Shown here one piece after another: positions 29,607 through 31,922 of a DNA stretch of 40,565 nucleotides (the first letter of the stretch is position 1; every line of letters begins with the position of its first letter). The translations under genes and the position numbers were made by a program. Below the pieces are notes generated by a model. That model saw only the letters and a list, made by a program, of their open reading frames with translations. It was not told the origin of the DNA and did not search any database. This DNA comes from Clostridia bacterium (GTDB lineage Bacteria; Bacillota; Clostridia; Christensenellales; Borkfalkiaceae): the NCBI GenBank assembly GCA_021202395.1, contig JAJQDC010000043.1:1-40565 (forward strand), in the 5' to 3' direction.

Positions 29607-30377
29607 TTACAACCCCGAATATGCCTGAAATAAATACTTTAAGTCGTCGGGATTATCCTTATAAATATTGCCGTGCCGCCTGCCCGTGAAGACCTTTTCG
29701 CCGCCGCTGTACGCGGTAAGCGTGGTTATCGGCATAAGCTGCCACTTGCCTTTGCCCAGCGGAGACGTTGCGAACACCACACCGCCTTCCGTTTGCTGAA
29801 AATACAGCGAATTTTCATAATTTGAATGCACGTACATATACTCGCCGTCGTACAGCAGAGCGTTGAGTTTATTGCCTGCCGACATATCGGCAAAAATGCC
29901 GTCTAAAAGTTCAAACCTTTCCTTAGCATTGAGTCTGCCCCTTTGCCTTTCGGTATTGTTAATTTCGTCTACTATATATAAAAGCACCCTTTCGCTGTCC
30001 GTCTGCCCCTTCTGCACGTAGGTATAGCCGTTGAGCTTGTCATAGCCGAATATAGTGCCGTTGTGTACCAGCGTCCATAGCCTGCCGCTATCATCCTTTT
30101 CTGTGAACGGATGACAATTGTTGTATTCCATATCGCCTATAGTCGCAAACCGTATATGGGCAAAAATGTTCTTACCCGAAACGTCGGCAGACAGCCTTTC
30201 GTGCAGATAGTAGCTTTTGCTTGCCTGTATAGGCTCGCGTTCTATCTGTGCCGTGTTGCCGTCGAGCAAGGCAAGTCCCCAGCCGTTCGGATGTTTATTC
30301 GAGTGGCTGAAAAACTCTTTAAGGTAATCGTTTACCCTTACGCTGCGGCTGGCGCACAGTCCGAATATTTCGCACAT
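29607..30377 (-). CDS. Class II glutamine amidotransferase-like (Ntn) hydrolase
   Basis: 256 residues starting M-C2-EIFG, so removal of Met would expose the catalytic N-terminal Cys. Other family features: HPNGWGLALLDG (about 33-44), IFAHIRFATIGD, then NNCHPFTEKDDSG and WTLVHNGTIFGY (oxyanion region, NG). It is the YafJ/EgtC/Dug3-like type without a synthase domain. EgtC and yeast Dug3 act on gamma-glutamyl bonds, and this gene starts one base after the glutamate-cysteine ligase stop. Cleavage of a gamma-glutamyl-thiol is therefore a reasonable inference. Confidence 0.85.
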   Translation of the reverse strand: MCEIFGLCASRSVRVNDYLKEFFSHSNKHPNGWGLALLDGNTAQIEREPIQASKSYYLHERLSADVSGKNIFAHIRFATIGDMEYNNCHPFTEKDDSGRLWTLVHNGTIFGYDKLNGYTYVQKGQTDSERVLLYIVDEINNTERQRGRLNAKERFELLDGIFADMSAGNKLNALLYDGEYMYVHSNYENSLYFQQTEGGVVFATSPLGKGKWQLMPITTLTAYSGGEKVFTGRRHGNIYKDNPDDLKYLFQAYSGL

Positions 30378-30378
30378 A

Positions 30379-31674
30379 CTACTGCTCCCCTTTGCCGTTC
30401 AACTGCCGTGAGTAACGTTTTGCAAGTTCAATTCCCTTCGCCACGTAACCGTTGCCGTATTCGCTGCTTATAATTTTTGCGTATCTTTTCAGGGGATCTG
30501 TTACCTTTTCAAGCTGGTAATCTACGGTATCCGCAACTTCTTTACCCGCAAAAACAAACGCCTTTTTTATATCCGTAAGCACCGTCCTTGCCGCACGGTT
30601 TACCGAAACGCAGTCGTACCAGCCCCTTTCTATTACAATTTTACTTTCATCGTACAGCGCCGCGCGCTTCATATTCCTTATGGCAACCGCCTGTTCCGCA
30701 AAGCCGAACGGCTCTTTATCGGTTGTAAGAAGATATAACAACAACACGTTTATAAAATCAAAGTCGCGCACGTCTATTCCTATAGGCGAAAGAGGGTTCA
30801 AATCAAACATCCGCAGTTCTATATGGCTTACGCCGCCGTTTACAAGATTTTCAAGCGAATTATCCCCCTTTGCCTTTAACCTTATAGGGTAGTAAAGTTC
30901 GCTCGCCGCGCGAAGCTGTCCGCCGTCTATGTAGCTTTGTATGCTGTCTGCATAAGTCTTTAACGAAGTAAAATCGAAGTACGGTACAAAGTTGTTCCAG
31001 TAGCCTTCTTCGCCGCATCTGGGCGAAGCGTATTTAGAAAGCACGCTGCTGCCCGATATGCCGCACTCGTAATACGAACTGTCAAAAAGCGGGCTTGCCG
31101 CAGTAAGGTAAACTATAAGCCAGCTGTATTTCGTTACCTTTTCGGCAAGTTCAAGGTAGAGCGAATTTTTGTATTCGTCATAGGATATTCCCGCGTCTTT
31201 CGGGTACTTGCTCTTTAAAAAATCTTCCGCCAGCGAATAATTTACATGTATGCCCGAAAACAGCATCTTCTTTTTACCGTACTTGCCCGCAAGGTAATTG
31301 CGGTAAATCTCTTTACCTTTAAGCCGACCTTCAAAACTTGCCACAGGTATATCTTCTTCCCCGTTTACGTATGGCGGGTTTGAAAAAGCCCACAGATATT
31401 CTTTGCCCGTAGGCAATGTAAGCAGCTTGCCCGTTACTTCTTTCTGAAGGGAATGCAGTTCTTGGATTACGCCTTTAACGCTGCTATGTACGCCCGTTAT
31501 AATTTCAACCTGGTTTTCGCAAAAATCTCTGTCTATATGCTCGTTGCCCTTGAACGGGTGCGGCGTGTGCGAAAGGTTGCCGCTTCCGTTTATGCGAAGG
31601 CTCTCCTTCTCTATGCCAAACTCGCCTGCGGCGAGGTAATCTTTAAGTTCGTGCGGCTCTATGTTAAATGCCAT
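30379..31674 (-). CDS. gshA: Glutamate-cysteine ligase
   Basis: 431 residues of the GshA (Glu_cys_ligase) type: FGIEKESLRINGSGNLSHTPHP (about 19-40, ATP/Mg site), DFCENQVEIITGVHSS, LWAFSNPPYV, then FSGIHVNYSLAEDF (about 138-151) and SHIELRMFDLNPLSPIGID. It joins L-glutamate and L-cysteine using ATP. It lacks the C-terminal ATP-grasp part found in fused GshAB of other Firmicutes, and no gshB is in the window, so gamma-glutamylcysteine itself may be the end product. AGGAG precedes the ATG. Transcription is preceded by the leader peptide/terminator at 31692-31846. The stop is a genuine TAG. Confidence 0.92.
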   Translation of the reverse strand: MAFNIEPHELKDYLAAGEFGIEKESLRINGSGNLSHTPHPFKGNEHIDRDFCENQVEIITGVHSSVKGVIQELHSLQKEVTGKLLTLPTGKEYLWAFSNPPYVNGEEDIPVASFEGRLKGKEIYRNYLAGKYGKKKMLFSGIHVNYSLAEDFLKSKYPKDAGISYDEYKNSLYLELAEKVTKYSWLIVYLTAASPLFDSSYYECGISGSSVLSKYASPRCGEEGYWNNFVPYFDFTSLKTYADSIQSYIDGGQLRAASELYYPIRLKAKGDNSLENLVNGGVSHIELRMFDLNPLSPIGIDVRDFDFINVLLLYLLTTDKEPFGFAEQAVAIRNMKRAALYDESKIVIERGWYDCVSVNRAARTVLTDIKKAFVFAGKEVADTVDYQLEKVTDPLKRYAKIISSEYGNGYVAKGIELAKRYSRQLNGKGEQ

Positions 31675-31691
31675 AAAAATCTCCTGAAAAA

Positions 31692-31722
31692 TAAAAAAGA
31701 CAGACGCCCGTAAAAGCGTCTG
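31692..31722 (-). terminator. Intrinsic terminator (attenuator) before gshA
   Basis: CAGACGC / GCGTCTG stem (31716-31722 with 31701-31707), 8-nt loop and a T6 run on the minus strand, ending about 18 nt before the gshA start. No gene ends just upstream except the 29-residue leader, so it can only attenuate gshA. Confidence 0.85.
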
Positions 31723-31756
31723 CCCACTGCAATTTTTTAATTATATGCGTGTGCCG

Positions 31757-31846
31757 CTAAAACGAACATGAAAAAGTTACCGTATGAGTTTTCATACAGC
31801 AGCAACACATAGCTATATTATTGTAGTTTACTGCAAACTTTTTCAT
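31757..31846 (-). CDS. Tetra-cysteine leader peptide of gshA, 29 residues
   Basis: AAGGAAG with six-base spacing precedes ATG 31846. The product starts MKKFAVNYNNIAM, continues with four Cys (codons TGT TGC TGC TGT, 31807-31796) and ends with TAG at 31757. It includes one more Cys three residues before the end. A hairpin (31782-31787 with 31792-31797) starts at the last Cys codon, and an 11-bp inverted repeat pairs the start-codon region (31836-31846) with 31768-31778. A terminator follows 35 nt after the stop. This is the standard layout of a ribosome-mediated attenuator responding to charged tRNA-Cys; I could not see a clear antiterminator by eye. Confidence 0.75.
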   Translation of the reverse strand: MKKFAVNYNNIAMCCCCMKTHTVTFSCSF

Positions 31847-31866: not shown

Positions 31867-31886
31867 TACCTACTATTTCGATAGGT
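31867..31886 (-). promoter_or_regulatory. Shared operator motif, gshA copy
   Basis: Minus-strand ACCTATCGAAATAGTAGGTA, seven bases downstream of the -10 box, thus over the start point. Partly palindromic (ACCTA / TAGGT). Related motifs lie at 32006-32025 and 34859-34878. Size and AT-rich centre fit an Rrf2-type regulator (IscR or CymR class), but this is a guess. Confidence 0.6.
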
Positions 31887-31893
31887 TATATGT

Positions 31894-31922
31894 ATTATGT
31901 TCTTCCAAAACAGTAAAGTCAA
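31894..31922 (-). promoter_or_regulatory. Promoter of the gshA thiol operon
   Basis: On the minus strand TTGACT (31922-31917), a 17-nt spacer and CATAAT (31899-31894). It is divergent from the HD-gene promoter, with 43 bp between the two -35 boxes. Confidence 0.7.

Follow-up and report, generated by a model that had tools for sequence, protein, structure and literature searches.

The DNA analysed here, a stretch of 40,565 nt referred to throughout as the window, carries on its minus strand a Cys-codon leader ahead of the glutamate-cysteine ligase gene gshA. This leader is probably a ribosome-mediated attenuator of the trp type, with charged tRNA-Cys as its signal and gshA as its target; transcriptional readthrough would occur when the charged tRNA is short, and an Rrf2/CymR-like operator would be a further layer. 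The order along the strand is promoter, palindrome, ribosome site AAGGA, leader ORF, terminator, ribosome site AGGAG, and gshA (Table 1; codon numbers refer to the leader ORF). By its parts the leader is of the trp type, and its working like an attenuator is better supported than proven.

Table 1. Coordinates of the leader, its regulatory elements and the genes behind it in the window.
Feature	Position	Strand	Details
Promoter TTGACT-17-CATAAT	31894..31922	-	consensus match only; TATAAT in the close relative (L004)
Palindrome ACCTATCGAAATAGTAGGT	31868..31886	-	Rrf2/CymR-like putative operator; spans the expected transcription start
Leader ORF MKKFAVNYNNIAMCCCCMKTHTVTFSCSF, then stop TAG	31757..31846	-	29 codons, ATG start
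Four consecutive Cys codons TGT TGC TGC TGT (Cys14-17)	31796..31807	-	proposed stall site
Segment 1 AUGUGUUGCUGCU	31798..31810	-	Cys codons; can pair with segment 2
Hairpin inside ORF TGCTGTATGA-AAAC-TCATACGGTA, then ACTTTTTC	31778..31801	-	starts in the Cys run
Segment 2 AGCGGCACACGCAU	31745..31758	-	overlaps the stop codon and extends past it
Segment 3 UGCAGUGGGCAGACGC	31716..31731	-	includes the 5' arm of the terminator; predicted to pair weakly with 31757-31746
Intrinsic terminator and T-rich tail	31688..31725	-	hairpin 31725-31698; -17.9 kcal/mol
gshA, glutamate-cysteine ligase	30379..31674	-	start at 31674; PF04262 (5.7e-63), 431 aa, ligase domain only
Class-II glutamine amidotransferase-like gene	29607..30377	-	PF13230; next after gshA in the operon

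The Cys-codon leader ahead of gshA was confirmed: the four consecutive Cys codons of its ORF lie exactly where a preliminary description of this DNA had placed them, and the ribosome site, rated as good there, has its 3' end 8 bases ahead of the ATG. A fifth Cys follows beyond the run, at codon 27. A scan for short ORFs on both strands of the window (8-45 amino acids, ribosome site required, all starts counted) produced 94 entries, four of which had at least four Cys, and the leader ORF was the only entry with at least three consecutive Cys. In the own genome, four consecutive TGY codons were matched 22 times, against 15 times for the reversed control. When all 22 matches were read in frame, the gshA leader was the sole one in an ORF of at most 45 amino acids with ATG and ribosome site, and no second short CCCC ORF with a ribosome site was found among these own-genome sites. 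Another of the 22 matches is the N-terminus of a CsoR-like regulator (PF02583, 25031-24726, minus strand).

The intrinsic terminator is likewise located just ahead of gshA, as described. Two parts that belong to a trp-type leader are in place: a short ORF with ribosome site and run of the sensed codon, and an intrinsic terminator that separates it from the first gene. The hairpin inside the ORF, which had been said to begin at the last Cys codon, begins in the third. As main terminator this hairpin was set aside by judgement, being inside the ORF and having only three G-C pairs. The leader RNA as a whole was predicted to fold more stably than its shuffles (z -3.4), with the start codon paired into a stem with codons 23-27.

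Three segments may connect the Cys run with the terminator, and their order is that of E. coli trp, where segment 1 contains the sensed codons and segment 2 lies past the stop. The predicted duplex of segments 1 and 2 amounts to -19.5 kcal/mol (as good in 2.1% of segment 2 shuffles, or in 189 of 3000 in another run), and the hairpin of segments 2 and 3, formed by 31757-31746 with 31731-31716, to -8.4 kcal/mol (equalled by 245 of 3000 shuffles). Both pairings together were equalled by 13 of 3000 shuffles, for segments picked after inspection. Where the preliminary description saw no clear antiterminator, the latter hairpin is thus a candidate, if a weak one. For another possible partner of 31757-31746, the 3' arm of the terminator, the pairing was judged by eye to be too weak against the local hairpin.

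In the proposed mechanism, RNA polymerase would start near 31887 and the leader ORF would be translated. With enough Cys-tRNA, the ribosome would reach the stop codon and cover segment 2, the terminator would form and gshA would be off. With scarce Cys-tRNA, the ribosome would halt on Cys14-17 and cover segment 1, and segment 2, once freed, would hold the terminator 5' arm and let the polymerase continue into gshA and the amidotransferase gene. If the leader were not translated, segment 1 would pair with segment 2 and the terminator would form. A repressor of the Rrf2/CymR type, acting at the start site, would constitute the second layer.

The coupling of stall and terminator was assessed by a switch test, which considers the hold on the terminator 5' arm by RNA downstream of the ribosome before the 3' arm exists, and takes as its value the hold with the ribosome at the sensed codon minus that with the ribosome at the stop. 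The window returned 2.2 kcal/mol (70 of 400 shuffles as good; 2.0 kcal/mol and 72 of 300 in another run), and the close relative (L004) 2.4 kcal/mol (67 of 400; 43 of 300 in another run). The controls E. coli trpL and thrL returned 8.9 kcal/mol (0 of 400, and 0 of 300 in another run) and 8.6 kcal/mol (3 of 400), respectively. The known attenuator hisL was missed, with 0.2 kcal/mol and 154 of 400 shuffles as good, and the weak window value is therefore not a refutation. The window terminator outweighs an antiterminator hold of about 5.5 kcal/mol. When the leader was folded with a ribosome over the Cys codons, as the preliminary description had proposed, the terminator stayed at an equilibrium probability of at least 0.93 with the ribosome on Cys14-17. 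A stall at Cys27 would cover part of segment 2. In these models the sensing and the stopping parts of the window are clear, and a switch joining stall to terminator in this species is only suggestive.

The same folds bear on a Cys attenuator of the opposite sign, in which a ribosome past the run would weaken the terminator, a stalled one would leave it intact, and gshA would be made only when cysteine is plentiful, which would be metabolically sensible for a cysteine-consuming enzyme. The predicted terminator probability was indeed lowest with the ribosome past the run (0.62 at codon 22 and 0.55 at codon 26), and at the stop it was 0.73 as against 0.93 on Cys14-17. However, the stop value became 0.89-0.90 with a slightly different footprint, it rose to 0.98 when the start site was occupied by a second ribosome, and the effect depends on long-range pairs with the ribosome site. 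Moreover, the Ruminococcus bromii leader described below has the usual sign, and control by a CymR-type operator would likewise have it. We consider the opposite sign unlikely. Quite improbable, in our estimate, is a wider proposal which incorporates it, namely that Cys attenuators arose at least twice in Clostridia ahead of gshA, each added to a CymR-like operator, and that the one in the window has the opposite sign, closing down the thiol pathway on Cys-tRNA starvation and sparing scarce cysteine for protein.

For the attenuator with readthrough on Cys-tRNA shortage, conservation was available from one close relative. In samples of 151 family and 395 order genomes, gshA was found in two genomes each, as it was in the 93 genomes of the genus. 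These were the own genome and that of one relative (L003/L004), a distribution suggestive of acquisition by transfer; no further gshA was found in the genus or order sample. As there is only this one relative, and its gshA is 95% identical to that of the window, no covariation is to be had. The relative, with leader peptide MKKFAVNYNNIVTCCCCMKTHTVTFSCSF, retains the sensed CCCC and all residues that follow it, together with post-stop segment and terminator. From the Cys run to the end of the terminator, 1 of 110 bases differs between the two, whereas the fourfold sites of gshA and the amidotransferase gene differ at 34 of 264 (Fisher p 6e-5). Conservation is similar in the upstream intergenic stretch, where 3 of 110 bases differ, and the low substitution rate is thus not special to the leader. 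Over the whole leader, 4 of 212 bases differ and two one-base gaps occur, while codons 1-13 contain three changes in 39 bases, two of which alter the peptide just ahead of the Cys run.

A survey of gshA upstream regions was based on 136 loci, consisting of 80 kept out of 125 confirmed, 29 from the genus of R. bromii and 27 from its family, the genus search having given 30 loci from 43 matches, that of R. bromii itself included. After addition of the window and removal of 19 duplicates and one short sequence, 117 distinct upstreams were obtained. The layout, defined as a ribosome site, an ORF of 8-45 amino acids with at least four Cys, and a terminator at most 120 nt from gshA, was present in three of the 117 (the window, L004, and R. 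bromii YE282, L040) and in none of 7020 shuffles. When at least three Cys were asked for, the same three were returned, with one of the 7020 shuffles. The three represent two lineages, the genus of the window and R. bromii. A terminator within the last 160 nt was found in four of the 117 upstreams, i.e. the three with the Cys ORF and L079. The other 114 upstreams are without the layout, and the device is therefore not a general control of gshA.

These counts also concern two explanations in which cysteine is not sensed. A chance ORF beside an ordinary terminator, which the restriction of the window-type leader to two close genomes would allow, appears very improbable in view of the shuffles, the second lineage and the conservation. 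Another explanation, possible though rather unlikely, is that the terminator and operator regulate gshA while the leader takes no part in sensing: the terminator would then be constitutive or protein-controlled, and the ORF would encode a small thiol- or metal-binding peptide or be untranslated. The window switch, which is not significant, and the pairing of the start codon into a stem are in line with this, but a short ORF with a ribosome site very rarely contains a Cys run, and in two lineages such a run and a terminator occur together ahead of gshA.

The second lineage has the same layout ahead of gshA. Upstream of gshA in R. bromii YE282 are a promoter, an operator, the ribosome site AGGAGG, the leader MTYLNSLVTENCNLSMCTMCMCRICTLSDNYT and a terminator of its own, and the gene behind the leader matches PF04262; the same 460 nt are contained in a MAG record titled Methanobrevibacter (L037). 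The switch test returned 10.8 kcal/mol (0 of 400 shuffles as good, and 0 of 300 in another run), so that by this measure the predicted switch is convincing and as strong as that of E. coli trpL. Of its segments, the first, GGAGAGC, belongs to the ribosome site, the middle one, GCUCUCUG, directly follows the last Cys codon and the third, CGGAGAGC, is in the terminator; the middle one is free with the ribosome on Cys12-22 and covered with the ribosome at Cys25 or the stop. The pairings 1:2 and 2:3 were jointly equalled by 21 of 5000 shuffles. At equilibrium the terminator stayed at 0.98 or above with one ribosome on any Cys codon, and 0.45-0.60 was reached only when a second ribosome occupied the start while the first stood at Cys12, 20 or 22.

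Between the R. bromii and window leaders, no above-chance DNA alignment was found (best 15 nt, E 0.16, on opposite strands). The two peptides align over nine Cys-rich residues, five of them identical, with an E-value of 4e-4 from a two-sequence comparison with composition correction off, a likeness which we read as shared composition, though the two may have a common origin. The R. bromii leader DNA gave some match at E up to 1 in 148 of 161 genus genomes, and in the 160 other than its own only short matches were found, of at most about 73 bases among the matches listed. Together with the anatomy of the window leader and with the close relative, R. bromii gives good support to the trp/his/leu-like layout for Cys claimed in the preliminary description, the window switch being the part that is only suggestive.

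T-boxes and other metabolite-binding RNAs are the usual leaders of amino-acid genes in Firmicutes, and either T-boxes or CymR had been named as what would usually control a gene of this kind. No Rfam family reached its gathering score in the leaders of the window, L004, R. bromii (L040) or the cysK locus (L110). Matches at E up to 10 were weak only; the 13 obtained in the window leader were all far below gathering scores and none was a T-box, so the window leader lacks the covariance model match of a T-box riboswitch. That a T-box or other metabolite-binding RNA controls gshA is accordingly extremely improbable, even with the Firmicutes precedent, for which PMC1262725, in its treatment of synthetase genes, describes T-boxes and no classical attenuation.

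The CymR part of that expectation fared better. The palindrome at the transcription start, a feature absent from the preliminary description, occurs in close form at three places in the own genome: the gshA leader, the promoter of cysK (TIGR01139 match of 447 bits, cut-off 351) and a third site (C36), around which no clear promoter was seen. The operator-like palindrome at the gshA promoter is thus shared with cysK, as in a CymR/Rrf2 regulon, and it would presumably be bound by a CymR/IscR-type Rrf2 repressor. A looser form, CCTA[CT]N5-8[AG]TAGG, was present in 20 of the 117 gshA upstreams and in 14 of 7020 shuffles, often just past a -10-like box among the 18 of the 20 that were inspected with preceding sequence. 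CymR of C. acetobutylicum is described as an Rrf2 protein with a motif resembling that of IscR (PMC3828012). As such a palindrome is present here too, the leader would add a second layer and would not replace control by the palindrome. In the cysK locus (L110, 1440-1860), the promoter has the same palindrome, followed by a short frame ending in Cys, MIQYLYTVKDMRC; the cysK leader is long and extensively folded.

With the E. coli trp and thr leaders, the window shares the short ORF, the run of the sensed codon, the intrinsic terminator and, as predicted, overlapping alternative helices; it differs in the amino acid (cysteine), the thiol-synthesis gene, the Clostridia host, the added operator and the weak antiterminator. 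Short ORFs with Cys-codon runs before genes of Cys metabolism are described for mycobacteria, as leaderless polycysteine leader ORFs (Canestrari et al. 2020, cited in PMC13236596), and for cys/cbs genes of Actinobacteria, without conserved terminator hairpins (PMC1262725); in the window, the ORF ahead of gshA has its own ribosome site and is followed by an intrinsic terminator. In Rhodobacterales, uORFC-8-2 before cysS is a Cys-codon short ORF with a terminator for which ribosome-mediated attenuation is proposed (PMC8632094); in contrast to the window, it has two tandem Cys codons, an alphaproteobacterial host and a tRNA synthetase gene. The His leader peptides that precede hisS*/hisZ of bacilli are likewise amino-acid leader ORFs in Firmicutes and differ in histidine, hisS paralogues and Bacilli; their authors present them as the first, other than ermC, to come from beyond Proteobacteria and Actinobacteria, and weigh a repeated origin from random sequence (PMC2965389). 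A Cys leader before gshA, gshF or a glutamate-cysteine ligase was not found in the literature by title, in a search with subscription journals mostly outside it.

The gshA product also has a match to the bifunctional GshA/GshB model, covering its ligase half and scoring under the cut-off. A relative of the amidotransferase gene was found in 108 of the 136 gshA loci, in 92 of them directly downstream on the same strand and in 16 elsewhere in the locus. The enzyme is class-II and distantly like EgtC, and its widespread pairing with gshA suggests that the two act jointly in the metabolism of gamma-glutamyl thiols.

Further along the minus strand, a gene for a sodium:dicarboxylate-type symporter (29275-27818) is preceded by two short ORFs of almost the same sequence, MIIYYRRCGGVC (29587-29549) and MTIFYRRCGGVC (29360-29322), which lie 227 bases apart and each have a good ribosome site. 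Between the two ORFs are a pair of complementary sequences, AAGGCAATACC and GGTATTGCCTT, and a 49-codon frame, MTISRLAIVFGGKYVAFSCNRFCCCCKKAPFYHSKTPTQYSIQHCVVLP (29521-29372, minus strand), with four consecutive Cys codons and without a ribosome site. No terminator-like site was found near the twin ORFs. Their CGGVC-stop motif had one match outside the own genome among the 151 family genomes, with no such ORF seen around it by eye, and among the same 151 genomes the symporter was found in the own one only. In L004 (3840-6474), a heavy-metal P-type ATPase gene (PF00122, PF00403) takes the place of the symporter, and its promoter has a similar palindrome, ACCTATTAAAAAAGTAGGA.

If the attenuator reading is true, two gshA Cys leaders in Clostridia without evident common DNA sequence, the second of them in a named species, R. 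bromii, would suggest that such leaders arose repeatedly. Thiol synthesis would then be tied directly to the charging of tRNA-Cys, and the leader would make it possible to test whether an enzyme that consumes cysteine should respond to cysteine starvation and, if so, with which sign.
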